Source of the DNA: Reyranella sp. CPCC 100927
Lineage (GTDB): Bacteria > Pseudomonadota > Alphaproteobacteria > Reyranellales > Reyranellaceae
Assembly (NCBI RefSeq): GCF_007859315.1
Contig: NZ_VOHA01000013.1
Span: 1-64,000, forward strand
Direction: 5' to 3'
DNA length: 64,000 bases
Positions 27,974 through 38,563 of this stretch are shown here, piece after piece. How positions within the stretch are numbered: position 1 is the stretch's first letter; each line of letters begins with the position of its first letter. The position numbers were made by a program, and so were the translations under genes. The notes under the pieces were generated by a model. The model searched no databases, had not been told where the DNA came from, and saw only the letters and a program-made list of their open reading frames with translations.

Positions 27974-29047
<1,074 letters not shown>

Positions 29048-29501: not shown

Positions 29502-30119
29502 TCACGGCGTCGATCGGTGCCGGTGCTGACGCACATGCTGTTCGATCGCCGCGGCAACGGCCTGGGCGTGGATGCGCGCCACCCAGTGGTCGTCGCTGTC
29601 GATCACCATGAGGCTGGCGCGCGGCAGCAGGCCGGCAAGGTGACGGCCGACGGCCAGCGGGCTGATGGCATCGGCCGTTGCCCAGATCAGCAGGGTGGGG
29701 ATGTCGAGGGTCGCCAGCGCCGGCGACAGGTCGGGGCCGCGCTCGTAAACCCAGGACGGCGCCTGCGGGTAGGTGTTCCGATAGTCGGGTCGCCAGTCCG
29801 AGACGCCGAACGGCCCGAGATCGATGCCGCCCGACGTCGCGGTGAGCACCAGCGCCGGCACGCGATCGGGCCGCCGCAGCGCCGCATGCATGGCCACGAC
29901 GCCGCCCATCGATTGGGCGACCAGCACGGCCGGCTGGTCGAGCTGATCGAGCAGGCGCGCGACCAGATCGTCGAACGACTGCACGCCGGGCTCGGGCGGC
30001 ACGGTGCCCAGGCCGGGCCAATCGACTGGCGCCAGCGTCCAGGCCGGCGGTAACTGTGCCACGACGGGTTCCCAGAAGCTGCCCTGGCCGCTGACGCCGG
30101 GCAAGAACAGCAGACGCAT
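29502..30119 (-). CDS. Alpha/beta hydrolase
   Basis: A 205-residue alpha/beta hydrolase. It has the start LLFLPGVSGQGSFWEPV, the nucleophile elbow VAQSMGGVVAMHAA, an Asp in LLIWATADAISP and a final His in DSDDHWVARIH, giving a plausible Ser-Asp-His triad. The short length resembles small esterases/thioesterases. ATG 30119 has GAGG eight bases ahead; GTG 30128 is an alternative. It follows the single-module CxxxCxxCC gene by ten bases and is probably co-transcribed with it. Confidence 0.8.
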   Translation of the reverse strand: MRLLFLPGVSGQGSFWEPVVAQLPPAWTLAPVDWPGLGTVPPEPGVQSFDDLVARLLDQLDQPAVLVAQSMGGVVAMHAALRRPDRVPALVLTATSGGIDLGPFGVSDWRPDYRNTYPQAPSWVYERGPDLSPALATLDIPTLLIWATADAISPLAVGRHLAGLLPRASLMVIDSDDHWVARIHAQAVAAAIEQHVRQHRHRSTP

Positions 30120-30129
30120 GGCCTTCACC

Positions 30130-30912
30130 TCAATCCTGATCGAGCACCCGGCGCGCGTGGCCGAGCACGCTGTCGGCCGGTGCGCTCTCCATCTTCTCGA
30201 CGACGGCCCGGCTGGCGGCCTCGAAGCGCGCCGCCCACTCCGCCAGGGGCCGCGGTTCGAGGGCGTGGCTGCGATGGCGATGCCAGTAGAGCGTCAGCGG
30301 CAGCGGCACGTAGGTCGGGCGCGGCGGCGTCTCGTCCGACGTCAGGCGCGCCAGCGCCCGCGACGGCCTGCCCAGCGGCACGGATTGGGTCCGCAACGTA
30401 TCGGGACTGGCGCAGTGCGACGCTGGCGACGTCACGAGATACTCGCGGCACATCAGCGGCCGATCGGCATAGATGGAACACCGTTCGTCCTCGAGGAAGG
30501 GACAGTCGATGCCGAGGTGGAAATAGGCGTGCGCCTCGCGCGCCTGCTCGGCAATGGGGGTATCGGCATCGGCGTCGATCACGGCGTCGAGCGGCCGCCA
30601 CGATGCGATCCGCCGCTCGGCATCGGCGAAGCGCGCTTCGATGTCGGCCCGTCGTGCCGCGGGCAGGCGTTCGATGAGGTCGACGATGGCATGCGCCTCG
30701 ATGTCGGAAATCGCCACGAGCTGGCGACAGCAGGCGGCGCAACCGGCGCGGCAAGAGACCTGTTCGCCGCGTGCTTCGACCTTGGCGACGGCGGTGTCGA
30801 TGATGTGGGATGCCAAGGCACGGAGCGGCGGCAGCACCGCCTGCGGTGGCACCCGCTCTGCCGTCGCATCCGCAGGCCCTGTCTCGGCATCGGGGCTCGT
30901 CGGTCCCGGCAT
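30130..30912 (-). CDS. CxxxCxxCC (YkgJ-type) cysteine-cluster protein, one module
   Basis: A 260-residue protein with one copy of the module that recurs in this region. The cluster CRAGCAACC uses C54, C58, C61 and C62; a second set follows about 80 residues later in CPFLEDERCSIYADRPLMCREYLVTSPASHC. Such proteins (PF03692, YkgJ/YcgN-like) are predicted to bind zinc or an iron-sulfur centre; function is not known. ATG 30912 has GGAG eight bases upstream. Downstream on the same strand is the alpha/beta hydrolase; upstream is the aminotransferase gene with its terminator. Confidence 0.83.
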   Translation of the reverse strand: MPGPTSPDAETGPADATAERVPPQAVLPPLRALASHIIDTAVAKVEARGEQVSCRAGCAACCRQLVAISDIEAHAIVDLIERLPAARRADIEARFADAERRIASWRPLDAVIDADADTPIAEQAREAHAYFHLGIDCPFLEDERCSIYADRPLMCREYLVTSPASHCASPDTLRTQSVPLGRPSRALARLTSDETPPRPTYVPLPLTLYWHRHRSHALEPRPLAEWAARFEAASRAVVEKMESAPADSVLGHARRVLDQD

Positions 30913-30967
30913 GCTCAATCTCCGTGTCGGCAGCACACTGGCACGGCGCGGCGATGCGGCGCAACAA

Positions 30968-30994
30968 ACCGCGCGGCGGATGGCGCCGCGCGGT
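30968..30994 (-). terminator. Intrinsic terminator after argD-like gene
   Basis: ACCGCGCGGCG and CGCCGCGCGGT form a perfect 11-base stem with a 5-base loop, 11 bases beyond the aminotransferase stop. On the minus strand it is followed by TTTGTTG, a moderate T-rich tail. Confidence 0.65.
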
Positions 30995-31005
30995 GTTGCC
31001 TTGGG

Positions 31006-32211
31006 TCACGCCGCGCGCGCCGGTGCCAGGACGAGCCTCAGCGCCTCGCGCAAGAGCTCGATCATGCGGTCGATCTCCGCCTTGGTGACGGTAAGCGCCG
31101 GCATGAAGCGCAGCAGGTTGGGCCGCGGTGCGTTGACCAGCAGGCCGACCGGTTGCAGCAGCCGGGCGGCCTCGACGATGCGGGCACCGTCGGGCGTCGC
31201 CAGTTTCAGGGCGCGCAGCAGACCGAGGCCACGCTCGCCCGGCATGCCGAACTCGGCCGCCAGTCCGCTCAGCCGATGCGAGAGGTAGGCACCGCTGTCG
31301 CGCACCTGATCGAGGAAGCCGGGTGCCAGCAGGGTCTGCATGATCGCGACACCGACGGCGGTCATCAGCGGATTGCCGTTGAAGGTGCCGCCCTGGTCGC
31401 CGTGCGCGAAACACGAGACGGCTTCCTTGGCGAGCAGTGCCGCGAGCGGCACGCCGCCGCCGATGCCCTTGCCCAGCGTCATGATGTCGGGTTCGACGCC
31501 GTAGTGCTGATAGGCGAACAGATCGCCGCTGCGGCCCATGCCGGTCTGGATCTCGTCGAAGATCAGCAGCAAGCCATGTTTGCGCGTCAGCGCATGGAGG
31601 TCGCGCATGAAATCGAGCGTCGATGGCACGACGCCGGACTCGCCCTGCACGGGTTCCAGCATCACCGCGACGGTGTTGCTGTCGATCAGTGCCTCGACCG
31701 AGGCGATATCGTTGAGCTTGGCCTTGGCAAAGCCGGGGACCTTGGGCTCGAACAGCTTGTCCCACCCCGGCTTGCCCGAGGCCGACATGGTGGCGAGCGT
31801 CCGGCCGTGAAAGCCGTCGTCAAAGGTGATGATGCCGTAGGCGCCGCCTTTGTGCAGGCTACCCCATTTGCGCGCCAGCTTGATGGCGCCCTCGTTGGCT
31901 TCGCCGCCACTGTTGCAGAAGAACACGCGATCGAAGCAGCTGTGGCGCGTCAGCAGGCCGGCCAGCTGCAGCGATGGCTCGTTGTAGAACGCCGGGCTGG
32001 GCGTGATCAGCTTGGCCGCCTGGTCGGCGAGCGCGCGGGCGATCTGCGGCGGGCAGTGGCCCAGTGTGTTGACGGCCCAGCCCTGCACGAAGTCGAGGTG
32101 CCGCCGGCCGCGATGGTCGGTGAGCCAACTGCCGTCGCCGCGCACGAACACGGCGTCGGGACGCTGGGTGATGTCCATCAGACTCTGCACGGGATCCGGC
32201 GCGCTGCTCAT
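31006..32211 (-). CDS. argD: Acetylornithine aminotransferase-like class III aminotransferase
   Basis: A 401-residue PLP enzyme of fold type I, subgroup III, closest in outline to ArgD/acetylornithine (and succinyldiaminopimelate) aminotransferases. Visible features: [57 protein letters not shown], the Asp of [14 protein letters not shown], and the PLP Lys in [18 protein letters not shown], then [14 protein letters not shown]. No argF follows, unlike the common argD-argF order. Its 5' leader contains a strong hairpin (32282-32314). The gene lies among the CxxxCxxCC genes. Confidence 0.85.
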
Positions 32212-32281
32212 GGCGTGTCCTTTCTGGATGTGACGACGGTGATTGACGGGAGGAGCGGGGCCTTGGCTGCGGCCCTAAAAC

Positions 32282-32314
32282 GAAAAGGCCACGGGGGTTG
32301 CCCGTGGCCTTTTC
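32282..32314 (-). terminator. Strong intrinsic terminator between triple-module gene and argD
   Basis: GAAAAGGCCACGGG and CCCGTGGCCTTTTC form a perfect 14-base stem with a 5-base loop; on the minus strand GTTTT follows. It lies 183 bases after the stop of the triple-module gene and 70 bases before the argD start. It can be the terminator of the former or an attenuator in the leader of the latter. Confidence 0.75.
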
Positions 32315-32460
32315 GCGGTGGCGACGATGTTGATCGGCTAGGGATCTCGATGCAACAGCGCGCGCCCACGCAGCCCCGGGACAGGGTGCATGATGCGTCG
32401 GCGTCGGATCGTAGCGGTTCTGATCATCGCGAGCGCACTCATCGCGGAGAGATGCCGGCG

Positions 32461-32478
32461 TGTCAATACGTTTTGACA
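32461..32478 (-). promoter_or_regulatory. Inverted repeat with TTGACA, possible argD promoter element
   Basis: TGTCAA-N6-TTGACA is a perfect inverted repeat; read on the minus strand it supplies a consensus -35 hexamer. The matching -10 (GATGAG, 17 bases on) is poor, so the promoter call is weak. If active, the transcript would contain the hairpin at 32282-32314 before argD. Confidence 0.3.
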
Positions 32479-32496
32479 GCTCTCACGCATCGGCGC

Positions 32497-34851
32497 CTAG
32501 CGTGCGTCCGATGCCAAGCCGTCGCTGGGCGATCCGTCCAGACGCCGGAGCCGGTCGACGAAGCGATCCATCCAGGTCTGGGCTGGGTGCAGTGCCGGCG
32601 CCGGATCGGGATGCTCCGCCGCCCAGCGCAGCACGCGCGTCAAGGGCACAGCCGCCGCTGTTCCATCGTCGGCGGGCGCCTCCAGGTGACGCAACGCCAG
32701 GTGGGTGCAGGCACTGGGGACCATGCGAATCGGCATCTGCTCGTCGTCGAGATGGTCGCAGTTCTTTGCCGGCGTCGTGACGAGGTACTCGCGGCAGACC
32801 AGTGGCCGGTCCTCATAGATCGAACATTTGCTGGCCTCGAGGAAGGGGCACGGCATGTCCAGCTTGAAGTACGCCGCAATGATGTCGTGGTCCTCGGCGT
32901 TGCCGTGCGTGACCCATCGGTCGTAGTCGGCGGCGCGGTCCCAGGCTGCGATGCTCTGGTCTGCCTCTGTGAAACGGTGCCGGATCTCGCTGCGCCGCGG
33001 CTCCGGCATGGCATCGACCAGGGCGGCGAGGCGCCGCGCCTCGACTGTCGAGACCAGCACCAGCTGATGGCAGCAGGCATCGCACTCGGCGCGGCAGGAA
33101 ACCGACTGGCCATTGGCCGCGACCTGAGCGGTCGCATGGCCGATCAGCGCCTCGGTGTACGCACGGAACGACGGCAGCATCTGTTCAGCCGACACAGCGC
33201 CCACGGGCATCGGTATGTCGACACCGACGGTGCGCGCCGCCGGGGTGTCGCCGCCGTCAGTGCTCGGCGCGGCGGGCTTCATGTCGCTGTTGCCGGCTAT
33301 CCGATCGTCGCCGGCAGGCCGACCATCCGGCTGCTGCAGTGGGCGCACGGCGTATCCGAACGTGTCCAGGCGTTGGAGGCGGTCGAGGAAGCGATCCATC
33401 CAGACCTGGGCCGGACGCAGTGTCGGTGTCGGGCTGGGATGTTCGGCCGCCCAGCGCAGCGCGCGCGTCAGGGGCACGGACGAAGCCGTTCTCCTGTCTG
33501 GCGGCGTCTCCAGGTGCCGCAACGCCAGATGGGTGTAGACGCTGGGCACCACGTCGATCGGCAGATGCCCGTCGCCCAGCGCGGCGCAGTTCTCCGCCGG
33601 ACTCGTGACCAGATATTCGCGGCAGACCAATGGCCGCTCCTCGTAGATCGAGCAGCTGCCGGCCTCCAGGAAGGGACAGGGGATGTTCAGCGTGAAGTAG
33701 GCGCTGGTGACGTCGCTGTCCTTGACGTTCTCGTGCTTGACCCATCGCTCGTAGTCGGCGGCGCGATCCCAGGTGGCGATTCGCTGCTCGGCCTCGTCGA
33801 AGCGGCGACGGATGTCGCTGCGCCGCGGCTCGGGCATGGCCTCGACGACCGCGGCGAGGCGGTGTGCCTCGATCGTCGATATGGGGACGACCTGGCTGCA
33901 GCAGGCACCGCACCCGGCGCGGCAGGAGATCGACTTTCCCGTGGCCGTGACCTGCGCAATCGCGTCGCTGACCAGGGCATTGGTGTATGTCCGGAACGAC
34001 GGCAGCATGGCTTCGGCCGAAACCGTGCCCAGGGGCATCGGTATGTCGACATCATTGGTGCGTGTTGCCGCGGCGTCGCCGGCGGTGGTGGTGGGCGGTG
34101 CGCCGGTTGTCGCGTCGCCCTTGCCGAGGCGACCGAGGAAATCCTCGATCCACTCTGTGCCTCGGCGGCGGGGCAGCGTGTCGGGGTGCGCCGCGACCCA
34201 GTCCAGTGCGACCGACACTGTCAGGGCCTGCGTATCGACGTCGGCCACGCGGCGCAGCAGCGCCGACAGTTTGGGGATGGGGACGCCCTCGATTCCACCA
34301 TCGTGCGGGCGCGCGCAGCGCGATGCCGGCGAGGTCACCAGGTACTCGCGGCAGATCAGCGGACGATCGGCGTGGATGGAACAGTTTTCATCCTCAAGGA
34401 ACGGGCAGGGCAGGTCGAGATCGAAATAGGCCCGGTCGAACGCCCGGTCCGGCGATCGGATGTCCATCGACCGGTCGTAGAGCCCGGCGTCGCGCAGGCG
34501 CCGGCCGATCGCGGCGAAGCGGGCCTTGATGGTGTCGCGCCGCGGCTGCGGCATGGCCTCGACAAGGTCGTGCAGGAAATAGGCCTCGGGTGCCGAAATC
34601 GGCACGGCCTGGTGGCAGCAGGCACCGCAGCCCGCCTTGCAGGAGATCGTTTTGCGGCTCCCGGCGAGTTCCTGCTCCGTGGCCGTGACGACGGCATTGA
34701 CGAGGTTCTGCAGGGCCGGCAGGACCGCCTGCGGTTTCACCATGTCGAGGGGCACGGTGATGCGTCCCTGCACCGAGAGCGTGCCGACCTGCAGGCGCAG
34801 GTTGGCGCTGGCCTGTCGGGCCGGATCGATGGGCGCGGCGCCGGTCGTCAC
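32497..34851 (-). CDS. Three-module CxxxCxxCC (YkgJ-type) cysteine-cluster protein
   Basis: A 784-residue soluble protein made of three tandem copies of a roughly 240-residue module joined by Thr/Pro/Ala-rich linkers. Cysteine clusters: C71-C75-C78-C79, C310-C314-C317-C318, and C586-C590-C593-C594 (CRAECDACC). Each module also has CPFLE-x4-C-S-I and RPL-x-CREY, near 148-170, 391-412 and 667-688. Modules 2 and 3 are far more alike than either is to module 1, also in the DNA, indicating a more recent duplication. The GTG at 34851 overlaps the stop of the upstream single-module gene (GTGA) and has AGGGGA ahead. Metal binding is likely; function unknown. Confidence 0.82.
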   Translation of the reverse strand: MTTGAAPIDPARQASANLRLQVGTLSVQGRITVPLDMVKPQAVLPALQNLVNAVVTATEQELAGSRKTISCKAGCGACCHQAVPISAPEAYFLHDLVEAMPQPRRDTIKARFAAIGRRLRDAGLYDRSMDIRSPDRAFDRAYFDLDLPCPFLEDENCSIHADRPLICREYLVTSPASRCARPHDGGIEGVPIPKLSALLRRVADVDTQALTVSVALDWVAAHPDTLPRRRGTEWIEDFLGRLGKGDATTGAPPTTTAGDAAATRTNDVDIPMPLGTVSAEAMLPSFRTYTNALVSDAIAQVTATGKSISCRAGCGACCSQVVPISTIEAHRLAAVVEAMPEPRRSDIRRRFDEAEQRIATWDRAADYERWVKHENVKDSDVTSAYFTLNIPCPFLEAGSCSIYEERPLVCREYLVTSPAENCAALGDGHLPIDVVPSVYTHLALRHLETPPDRRTASSVPLTRALRWAAEHPSPTPTLRPAQVWMDRFLDRLQRLDTFGYAVRPLQQPDGRPAGDDRIAGNSDMKPAAPSTDGGDTPAARTVGVDIPMPVGAVSAEQMLPSFRAYTEALIGHATAQVAANGQSVSCRAECDACCHQLVLVSTVEARRLAALVDAMPEPRRSEIRHRFTEADQSIAAWDRAADYDRWVTHGNAEDHDIIAAYFKLDMPCPFLEASKCSIYEDRPLVCREYLVTTPAKNCDHLDDEQMPIRMVPSACTHLALRHLEAPADDGTAAAVPLTRVLRWAAEHPDPAPALHPAQTWMDRFVDRLRRLDGSPSDGLASDAR

Positions 34852-35597
34852 GGTTGTTTCCCCTGCGTGAGGCGGTGATGCTGCGCCAGATCCTGCAGAA
34901 TCCGCGAGAAGCGCTTCAACCAGTCGATGCCGCGGCGCTTGCCCTCCTTGCCGGTCTGCCGCGAAACCCACCGCAGGACGAGGGTGATCGGCATGACCGT
35001 CGATCGCGGCGGCGTGGTGTCCGATGTCAGGTACTGGAGCGCGGGGGCCACGAACTTGCGCTTCACACCCTTGATCTCGCGCCGGCGATCATGGCTGGCG
35101 CACAGTTCGGCCGGCGACGTGACGAAATACTCACGGCACACCAGCGGCCTGTCGGGGTGGATGGAGCAGCTTTCGTCCTCCAGGAACGGGCAGGCGATGC
35201 CCAGCCGGAAATAGTCGGCCAGCATCTGATCGTGATCGGCCGCGATCGCCGTGGAGGACCGCTGGATCAGCGTGTCGAGCGGGCGCCAGTCGGCCAAGCG
35301 GTTCTCGGCCTCGGCAAAGCGCTGTTTGATCGTTGTCCGCCGCGGTTCGGGCATCCGCTCGACCAGGGCGGCAAGCGCATGCGCCTCGACATCCGAGATC
35401 GGGACGAACATGCGGCAGCAGGCGCCGCAACCGGCCTTGCAGGAGATGGAGCGTCCTTCGGCGGCGACCGCCGCGAGCGACTCCCGCGTGTGGGCCTCCA
35501 CCAGCTGGTACAGCGCCGGCAGGATGGCCCGGGCGGGGACGCGTTCGCTGGGGACGCTGACGGCGATACCGGGTTCTTCCGGCGGCGAGGCGCTCAT
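34848..35597 (-). CDS. CxxxCxxCC (YkgJ-type) cysteine-cluster protein, one module
   Basis: A 249-residue single-module protein. The cluster is C53-C57-C60-C61 (CKAGCGACC), followed by RLGIACPFLEDESCSIHPDRPLVCREYFVTSPAELC. The C-terminal part is basic (RRREIKGVKRKF, KEGKRRGIDWLKRFSRIL). It is translationally coupled to the three-module gene downstream (four-base overlap). ATG 35597 is chosen; a TTG at 35615 would add six residues. It heads the CxxxCxxCC group and lies 308 bases from alaS, which is transcribed the other way. Confidence 0.83.
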   Translation of the reverse strand: MSASPPEEPGIAVSVPSERVPARAILPALYQLVEAHTRESLAAVAAEGRSISCKAGCGACCRMFVPISDVEAHALAALVERMPEPRRTTIKQRFAEAENRLADWRPLDTLIQRSSTAIAADHDQMLADYFRLGIACPFLEDESCSIHPDRPLVCREYFVTSPAELCASHDRRREIKGVKRKFVAPALQYLTSDTTPPRSTVMPITLVLRWVSRQTGKEGKRRGIDWLKRFSRILQDLAQHHRLTQGKQP

Positions 35598-35905: not shown

Positions 35906-38563
35906 ATGGCAACGGCAAGCGAAATCAGGCGGACGTTCCTGGAGTTCTTCGGCGACAACGGCCATCAGGTCGTGGCGTCGAGCCCTCTCGTGCCGCGCAA
36001 CGATCCGACCCTGATGTTCACCAACGCCGGCATGGTGCAGTTCAAGAACGTCTTCACCGGCCTGGAGAAGCGTCCTTACAACCGGGCCGCCAGCTCGCAG
36101 AAGTGCGTACGCGCCGGCGGCAAGCACAATGACCTCGAGAACGTGGGCTACACGGCCCGGCACCATACGTTTTTCGAGATGCTGGGGAATTTCTCGTTTG
36201 GCGACTATTTCAAGGAGCGATCGATCGAGCTGGCCTGGAACCTGATCACCAAGGAATACGGTCTGTCCAAGGATCGGCTGCTGGTGACGGTGTTCCATAC
36301 CGACGACGATGCGGCCGGCCATTGGAAGAAGATCGCGGGCCTGCCCGACTCCAAGATCATCCGCATCCCGACGTCCGACAATTTCTGGGCGATGGGCGAT
36401 ACCGGCCCCTGCGGTCCGTGTTCGGAAATCTTCTACGACCACGGTGAGAGCATCCCCGGCGGGCCGCCGGGTTCGGCTGACGCCGACGGCGATCGCTTCA
36501 TCGAGATCTGGAACCTGGTGTTCATGCAGTTCGAGCAGGTCACAAAGGATCAACGCCTGGACCTGCCACGACCTTCCATCGACACCGGCATGGGATTGGA
36601 GCGCCTGGCCGCCGTTCTGCAGGGCAAGCACAACAACTACGATATCGACCTGTTGCGGGCGCTGATCGAGGCGTCGGCGCATGTCACCGGTGTCGATCCC
36701 GATGGGCCGCAGGCGCCATCGCACCGGGTGATTGCCGATCACCTGCGGGCCAGTTCGTTCCTGATCGCCGACGGCGTACTGCCGTCCAACGAGGGCCGCG
36801 GCTATGTGCTGCGCCGGATCATGCGTCGCGCCATGCGCCATGCCCACATGCTGGGGGCCAAGGACCCGGTGATCTACAAGCTGGTGCCCGAACTGGTGCA
36901 CCAGATGGGTGATGCCTTCCCCGAACTGATGCGCGCCCAGGCGCTGATCACCGAGACGCTGAAGCTGGAGGAAACCCGCTTCCGGGCCACCCTGGGTACC
37001 GGCCTGCGGCTGCTCGAGGAGGAGACCGCCAGCCTGAGCGCCGGCGGCACCCTGCGGGGCGATGTCGCCTTCAAGCTTTACGACACCTACGGCTTTCCGC
37101 TCGACCTCACCCAGGACGTGCTGCGGGCGCGCCAGATCGGCGTCGACCTCGAGGGCTTCGATCACGCCATGGCCGAACAGAAGGCCAAGGCGCGCGCCGC
37201 CTGGGCCGGCTCGGGCGAGGCCGCCAACGAGGCGGTCTGGTTCGACCTGCACGAAAGGGTGGGGGCCACCGACTTCCTGGGCTACGACACCGATACCGCC
37301 GAAGGCAAGGTCGTGGCGATCCTCGTCGACGGCAAGGAAGTGCCGGCGCTGAGCGCGGGGCAGAAGGGCCAGGTCATCGTCAACCAGACGCCGTTCTACG
37401 GCGAGTCCGGTGGCCAGATGGGTGATACGGGCCGCATCACGGCACCGGGTGGCGTCTTCGTCGTCACCGACACGCAGAAGAAGCTGGGCGATGTGCATGC
37501 CCATGTCGGCACTCTGGAGTCGGGCACGCTCAAGGTCGGCGACGACGTGACGCTGACCATCGACGTTGGCCGCCGCTCGGCGCTGCGGGCGCACCACTCG
37601 GCGACGCATCTGCTGCACAAGGCGTTGCGCAACCACCTGGGCGATCACGTGACACAGAAGGGCTCGCTGGTGGCGCCCGACCGGCTGCGCTTCGACATCA
37701 GCCATCCCAAGGCCGTGACGGTCGAGGAACTGCGCAAGGTCGAGGACGAGGTCAATGCCCACGTCCGGCTGAATGGCCCGGTCGAGACGCGGCTGATGAC
37801 ACCCGACGAGGCGGTGAAGGCCGGCGCCATGGCGCTGTTCGGCGAGAAGTACGGCGATGAGGTGCGGGTCCTCAGCATGGGCGGCCACGACGGCGACGAA
37901 TACTCCGTCGAACTGTGCGGCGGCACCCACGCGCGACGCACCGGCGATATCGGCTTGTTCAAGATCGTGTCGGAAGGTGCCGTCGCCGCCGGCGTACGCC
38001 GTATCGAGGCGGTGGCCGGCGCGGCGGCCGAAGCCTATGTCCGCGACCAGGGAGATCGGCTGAACGAGGCGGCGTCGACGCTGCGGGTACGGCCCGACGA
38101 GGTGCCGACGCGCATCGCCGCGCTGGTCGACGCGCAACGCAAGCTGGAGCGCGAGATCACCGAAGCGCGCCGCGCGCTGGCGCTGGCCGGCGGCGGCGCG
38201 GCCAAGGCCGATAATGATCCGCGCGAGATCGCCGGCATCAAGCTGATCGCGCGCCGCCTCGACGGCGTGCCGGGCAAGGACCTCAAGGGCATGGCCGATG
38301 ACTTCAAGAAGCAGGTCGGCTCCGGCGTCGTGGCGCTGATCGGCGTCGAGGACGGCAAGGCCTCGGCGGTCGTCGGCGTGACGGAGGATCTGGCCGGCCG
38401 GCTCAGCGCCGTCGATCTGGTTCGTACCGCTGTCGCCGCGCTGGGCGGCAAGGGCGGCGGCGGCCGGCCCGACATGGCGCAGGGCGGTGGGCCTGATGTC
38501 GGGCAAGCCGACGCGGCGCTCAAGGCGATCGAGCAAGCCATCGCCGCGCGGGGGGTGAACTGA
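35906..38563 (+). CDS. alaS: Alanyl-tRNA synthetase
   Basis: An 885-residue class II synthetase that charges tRNA(Ala). The aminoacylation core starts with [47 protein letters not shown]; motif 3 is seen as [22 protein letters not shown]. The editing domain has the zinc-like set [12 protein letters not shown] ... [13 protein letters not shown], and the C-terminal oligomerisation/DHHA1 region ends in a Gly-rich [16 protein letters not shown]. Length is normal. Its stop overlaps the start of a lipoprotein gene (TGATG). Confidence 0.98.

Follow-up and report, generated by a model that had tools for sequence, protein, structure and literature searches.

FliB, the lysine methylase of flagellin, binds one [4Fe-4S] cluster through a CX4CX3CC motif, and a total of eight cysteines is conserved in it; a similarity to the Pfam family PF03692 was noted in the same study (PMC8598068). 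PF03692 (CxxCxxCC) is the family of the YkgJ/YcgN-type "putative zinc- or iron-chelating domain"; beyond FliB, the literature found, available in part, assigns it no biochemical function, and two of these texts call it unknown or unlinked. In a stretch of 64,000 nucleotides of the genome of Reyranella sp. CPCC 100927 (the window; the genome is referred to as G000), three neighbouring genes (genes 1, 2, and 3) encode proteins of 249, 784, and 260 residues that together carry five modules of this family, three of them in the 784-residue chain. By synteny and tree, these five modules were established as paralogues of one PF03692 protein of about 250 residues, the gene of which lay between recA and alaS in the family's ancestor. 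Relatives of the modules in other phyla stand beside genes of the type VI secretion system (T6SS), and this association of the subfamily is a stronger result than the triple itself.

The modules of the window and their likeness to FliB

Each of the five modules alone scored 33.3 to 39.2 bits against PF03692 (curated cut-off, 23), and the whole proteins scored 36.8 bits (249 residues), 95 bits in three stretches (784 residues), and 35.6 bits (260 residues). The original prediction of five YkgJ-type modules in three neighbouring genes, with a true triple in one chain, was thus borne out. Given the strength of these matches and the conservation of the modules in relatives, chance was ruled unimportant. 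The genome holds six PF03692 matches in all, the sixth being at C7:156569, and none of the three window proteins matched an NCBIfam model. The modules measure about 230 to 250 residues and have eight aligned cysteines each, with a ninth in module 3 of the triple. Compared with the PF03692 type they are longer, with a spacer of about 75 residues between CxxxCxxCC and CPFLE, and two or three modules per chain were seen only in the family to which the window belongs. The proposed translational coupling of genes 1 and 2 also found support, since the GTG start of gene 2 and the TGA stop of gene 1 share 4 nucleotides (GTGA), an overlap that occurs as ATGA in the relative G001. Genes 2 and 3 and argD are overlain on the plus strand by an antisense open frame of 1624 codons (30004-34878); its codon-position GC pattern differs from that of the neighbouring genes, and we take it to be a by-product of high GC on the strand opposite to it.

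In an alignment of six FliB-family proteins, eight cysteines were invariant and followed the order seen in the window modules, and the C-x-F-L / C-S-[IL] region is shared as well. The first four cysteines are spaced CX4CX3CC in FliB but CX3CX2CC in the window modules, and FliB (about 400 residues) has a long C-terminal part, unlike these modules. By analogy with FliB, an Fe-S cluster in the modules is likely, protein methylation by them is plausible, and a T6SS part as their substrate is a guess, grades that reflect the common cysteine order together with a marginal similarity of the profiles. A structure model of the 784-residue protein (five rows; pLDDT, 65.7; pTM, 0.36) placed three units on low-confidence linkers and does not define the packing of the modules. 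Searches of solved structures by sequence returned nothing convincing (best E value of 0.0035, for a cytochrome c trimer, with no stretch passing alone), and fold searches returned nothing usable (the best viral row, with an E value of 0.45, was a protein labelled "zinc- or iron-chelating" from a phage).

The same features can be read without catalysis. The modules might hold zinc or an Fe-S cluster in a structural, redox-sensing, or metal-handing role, in which case the triple would add capacity or avidity, in line with the original idea of a multi-metal scaffold or avid binder, and in T6SS operons the proteins would serve as assembly or sensing factors. Such a role would suit the strict eight-cysteine core, the name that Pfam gives to the family, the failure of Pfam to recognise any known S-adenosylmethionine (SAM)-binding motif within the window modules, and the three units that the model sets on flexible linkers. 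It fits less well with FliB, the best-studied relative by motif, being an enzyme (PMC8598068), and with module genes that occur with, and once fused to, methyltransferases, although such a partner could equally carry out the methyl transfer itself. A non-catalytic metal module is a serious possibility, if short of probable.

Table 1. Coordinates of the module genes and of surrounding features in the window
Feature	Position	Strand	Remarks
Gene 1, 249-residue single-module PF03692 protein	34848..35597	-	ATG start; PF03692 core 35124-35441
Gene 2, 784-residue three-module PF03692 protein	32497..34851	-	GTG start
Gene 2, module 1 core	34339..34641	-	37.5 bits; orthologous across the genus (four genomes)
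Gene 2, module 2 core	33607..33924	-	39.2 bits; placed by the tree as a descendant of ancestral module 3
Gene 2, module 3 core	32776..33096	-	36 bits; 69% identity to module 2
Gene 3, 260-residue single-module PF03692 protein	30130..30912	-	ATG start; core 30433-30753
argD-type acetylornithine transaminase	31006..32211	-	
Terminator-like hairpin followed by U-runs	32280..32316	-	between gene 2 and argD; -34.8 kcal/mol, z -5.3
Alpha/beta-hydrolase gene	29502..30128	-	directly after gene 3
recA	27974..29047	+	conserved flank of the locus
alaS	35906..38563	+	conserved flank of the locus

Distribution, fusion, and constraint of the array

Homologues were sought in 61 genomes with a frame of 824 residues, comprising the 784-residue protein and 40 extra N-terminal residues. 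Matches were obtained in 38 genomes, namely in all 37 of the family (G000 included) and in G037, the sole further member of the order, in which neither the recA nor the alaS flank was found within 17 kb; none of the 23 genomes outside the order gave a match. Among the loci fetched, the array lay between recA and alaS in the family wherever contigs were long enough. A single-module state was assigned to 28 genomes from match counts, with five of these recA/alaS loci fetched (G005, G006, G012, G015, and G020). A separate single module followed by a fused pair was present in G007, G011, and G013, all of one genus, and probably in G009, the contigs of which end at the array. Three fused modules were present in the window, G001, G002, and G003, i.e., in all four genomes of the window's genus, with 50 to 53% identity in the best-aligned parts of the triple. 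G002 has a contig with six frames that together hold eight modules, and G004 holds four single-module genes, three of them adjacent. G004 also contains a module fragment (L041:5273-5479) of about 69 residues, 59% identical to another module of the contig.

PF03692 is widespread, with a match in 134 of 150 sampled Pseudomonadota genomes; among the rows listed in this survey, no frame but the window's had more than a single match. A locus search in named genomes gave no loci when the 784-residue protein was the sole query and 79 subfamily loci with an alignment as query; these are the best 79 of 384 confirmed and are unevenly spread (six Methylomonas, many Pyrinomonadaceae). At least two modules per frame were found in 4 of the 79, all four from the window's family. 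Multi-module chains are rare, as had been supposed, but within the genus the triple is the ordinary state. It represents a fusion restricted to one lineage, within a domain family that is already known, and is uncommon yet conserved in its genus.

Module trees were built from 46 modules and, more widely, from 116 rows, without L057 to L060, L064, L065, L096, L104, L119, and L135 (duplicates of other loci) and without L100. All 56 rows of the recA/alaS type formed one clade in the wider tree (SH-aLRT 98), which shows that the amplification was local. Module 1 was orthologous in all four triples (99/95, including one single module of G002) and grouped with module 1 of the doubles (92/87). Modules 2 and 3 of the triples in the window, G001, and G003, together with the second module of G002, formed a clade (98/91) that excluded the second module of the doubles, so that different paralogues were fused in doubles and triples, or modules were exchanged later. 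Module 2 of G001 and G003 made up a clade of its own (100/99), both modules 2 and 3 of the window fell with module 3 of G001 and G003 (98/94), and the third module of G002 lay elsewhere in the tree. By its placement, then, a copy of module 3 occupies the place of module 2 in the window, and the number of modules is still three. These topologies indicate either fusion on more than one occasion or module exchange, two histories that the tree does not separate. Fused arrays of this kind provide a natural case in which the number of domains is kept while their identity changes.

The pairwise ratio of nonsynonymous to synonymous substitution rates (dN/dS) was 0.30 to 0.54 for 12 module pairs, a set that does not include pairs with a proportion of nonsynonymous differences (pN) of at least 0.35, and one decayed module fragment only was found among 21 loci searched; both results argue that the copies are under constraint. 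Corresponding modules of G000 and G001 shared 64 to 70% identity, compared to 87% for argD, 91% for alaS, and 97% for recA. On these sequence comparisons, the modules evolve fast but under constraint. All eight cysteines were invariant across 80 aligned rows (without the multi-module loci L057, L059, L060, and L064 and without L058, L100, and L125) and were kept in 46 of 46 modules, an invariance that is partly built in because the rows were chosen with a motif pattern needing seven of the eight; the search for decayed fragments is a less biased check. This motif-based finder detected no module in L100.

Copy number and fusion state vary between close relatives, module 2 has been replaced in the window, the gene is kept in relatives without a T6SS, and G004 holds a decayed fragment. 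All of this could be expected of a generic, T6SS-independent gene that was copied by recombination and fused by chance, with an effect on dosage or with hardly any effect, the triple being devoid of special meaning. Escherichia coli YkgJ, the function of which is reported as unknown and the deletion strain of which filaments in biofilms of 24 to 48 h (PMC8743551), would be in keeping with this. We consider such amplification unlikely. Against it count the retention of the triple throughout the genus (four of four genomes) at the identity given above, a dN/dS below 1, and intact cysteines in every module.

Association with type VI secretion genes

T6SS core genes were present in the fetched stretch of 22 of the 79 subfamily loci. 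In 17 of these 22, all Acidobacteria by title, the module gene lies directly before tssK and after an FHA gene; in the other five (L078, L089, L114, L126, and L127; Verrucomicrobia, Planctomycetes, and Deltaproteobacteria by title) it stands beside tssE/tssF or ImpE. In L129 and L125 the module gene directly follows an Hcp homologue, which brings the T6SS-linked total to 24 of 79, and in L101 and L123 a T6SS-type FHA homologue alone is found beside the module gene. A further 20 loci have recA and/or alaS, and two more (L065 and L104) belong to G004 and G002. Of the remaining 31 loci, linked neither to a T6SS nor to recA/alaS, one (L135) is that of G037, a genome without TssF, and the genomes of the other 30 were searched for TssF, with 25 positive. 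All six sampled Methylomonas genomes have TssF. It was not found in the genomes of L100, L110, L107, L113, and L115; in the wider tree, the last three fall into a clade apart, joined by the second, unlinked copies of G012, G015, and G027. In two Acidobacteria loci a DUF3574 gene overlaps the stop of the module gene (L067:5699-6139 and L086:4656-5117).

In Planctomycetota, the phylum for which a T6SS baseline was measured, 10 of 11 carriers of the subfamily had a T6SS, compared to 24 of 116 sampled noncarriers (P = 5.6e-6). The homologues in T6SS clusters (Acidobacteriota, Planctomycetota, Verrucomicrobiota, Myxococcota, and Armatimonadota) belong to the same full-length subfamily as the window modules, and rows of the homologue alignment, which includes them, were 30 to 43% identical to the 249-residue protein. 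They are single modules beside T6SS genes, whereas the array of the window is located at recA/alaS and the T6SS of its genome elsewhere. These neighbourhoods suggest a candidate for the shared function that the original prediction left unnamed, and with loci of five phyla the "putative zinc- or iron-chelating domain" becomes a testable idea. A link between this PF03692 subfamily and T6SS was not seen in the result listings and abstract openings of our literature searches, which also returned no publication combining T6SS, Hcp, lysine methylation, and methyltransferase and none on T6SS with "iron-chelating domain".

Within the window's family, T6SS genes were found in all nine genomes with at least two modules at the locus, compared to 5 of the 28 others (P = 1.6e-5, uncorrected for kinship; the multi-module genera g1, g2, and g5 may represent one or few events). 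Such co-occurrence is consistent with a role of the amplified forms in T6SS, but the multi-module genera may share one ancestry, and most single-module genomes keep the gene without a T6SS. Taken with the divergence of the modules relative to argD, alaS, and recA, the co-occurrence would also suit an array for self-protection, in which fast-evolving tandem paralogues bind incoming or outgoing T6SS proteins in the manner of orphan immunity arrays or act as adaptors. A self-protection or adaptor array is very improbable; a strict eight-cysteine core is unusual for such proteins, and the neighbours identified in other phyla are core parts (tssK, tssE, tssF, hcp, FHA, and ImpE) and not effector genes.

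The genome of the window has a T6SS of its own, with TssF and TssK on contig C78. Beside these genes (L141:4740-14401) are a CHAT-TPR gene of 1031 residues and an open frame of 2189 codons. A T6SS-linked module in this genome was sought and discarded as a candidate, the sole PF03692 match outside the window being that on contig C7.

Methyltransferases of the PKMT and MTS types accompany the module gene and tssE/tssF in L078, L126, and L127. The L127 locus, from a metagenome-assembled genome of Deltaproteobacteria by title, contains a frame (L127:4917-7337) that is a fusion of a PF03692 module and an MTS methyltransferase domain; another PF03692 gene lies immediately upstream of it. Like the triple of the window, this frame places the subfamily in a larger chain; it joins the module to another domain and lies in a T6SS cluster, whereas the chain of the window joins modules to further modules. 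Two tandem PKMT-type genes are also present in G000 (C19:45919-47841; L150 and L151), away from the T6SS contig.

We tentatively read the modules as protein-modifying [4Fe-4S] domains linked to T6SS, three of which are tethered by flexible linkers in gene 2. In three genera, that of the window and two neighbours, the gene between recA and alaS was duplicated in place and adjacent copies were joined end-to-end; the triple would consist of three complete domains on flexible linkers, as the sequence and the low-confidence model suggest. Judging from FliB, CxxxCxxCC is most likely the [4Fe-4S] site of every module, perhaps in concert with some of the four cysteines that follow. An enzyme of the FliB kind is the most likely form of activity, probably a SAM-dependent transfer of methyl groups to lysines of a secreted, self-assembling protein. 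In other phyla the linkage of the subfamily to T6SS is a direct observation, and a corresponding role there would follow by extension. Tethering could, speculatively, supply three slightly different active sites per chain, suited to a repetitive Hcp tube or sheath. That the subfamily as a whole comprises the [4Fe-4S] methylases of the T6SS apparatus, the counterpart of FliB, and that one lineage built three-headed forms for a repetitive substrate, we regard as quite unlikely.

Several observations weigh against the reading of the modules as T6SS-linked, protein-modifying domains. The array of the window lies outside the T6SS cluster, and C78 has no PF03692 match. Of the family's 28 single-module genomes, 23 retain the single recA/alaS gene in the absence of tssK, and the other carrier in the order, G037, is without TssF, which together argue that a T6SS is not needed for the role of the recA/alaS gene. 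In an even sample of Planctomycetota, 3 of 119 genomes carried the family and 2 of these 3 had TssF. A PKMT gene was found about 2 kb from tssF in G005, G021, G023, and G052 (L139, L138, L137, and L136), with no match to the window's protein near either gene, so that PKMT may accompany T6SS in general. As to the likeness to FliB, one of three FliB-family proteins scanned reached the PF03692 cut-off, at 23.1, and the other two missed it; profiles of FliB and of the modules aligned with an hhalign probability of 7% (E value of 0.005); and NF038110, the FliB model, was matched neither by the window proteins nor by any other protein of the genome. Among the solved structures searched, none had a bearing on the cofactor.

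argD, the hairpin, and the hydrolase gene

Reading away from alaS on the minus strand, the order is gene 1, gene 2, argD, gene 3, and the hydrolase gene, followed by recA on the plus strand. The terminator-like hairpin was found by folding energy and z score and is absent from the list of a separate terminator scan. As in the window, argD sits within the array of G001, G002, and G003 (87, 83, and 85% identity to that of the window); it is absent from all five single-module recA/alaS loci fetched. In the double-module genus g5, the argD hits were only 28 to 29% identical, occurred in three of four genomes, and were other aminotransferase genes. Another argD-like gene is present at G000:C11 (358.8 bits, below the cut-off of that model). 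The module genes do flank argD, as had been noted, but the shared function drawn from this was rejected, since argD is restricted to the genus among the loci fetched, lies behind the hairpin, and has another argD-like gene in the genome. argD is probably a genus-specific insertion and no partner of the modules.

The alpha/beta-hydrolase gene was not found in G003 or on the short contig of G004. Near the array it was present in seven of the nine multi-module genomes, that of the window among them, whereas the five single-module recA/alaS loci were all without it; the hydrolase is a possible partner of the array.

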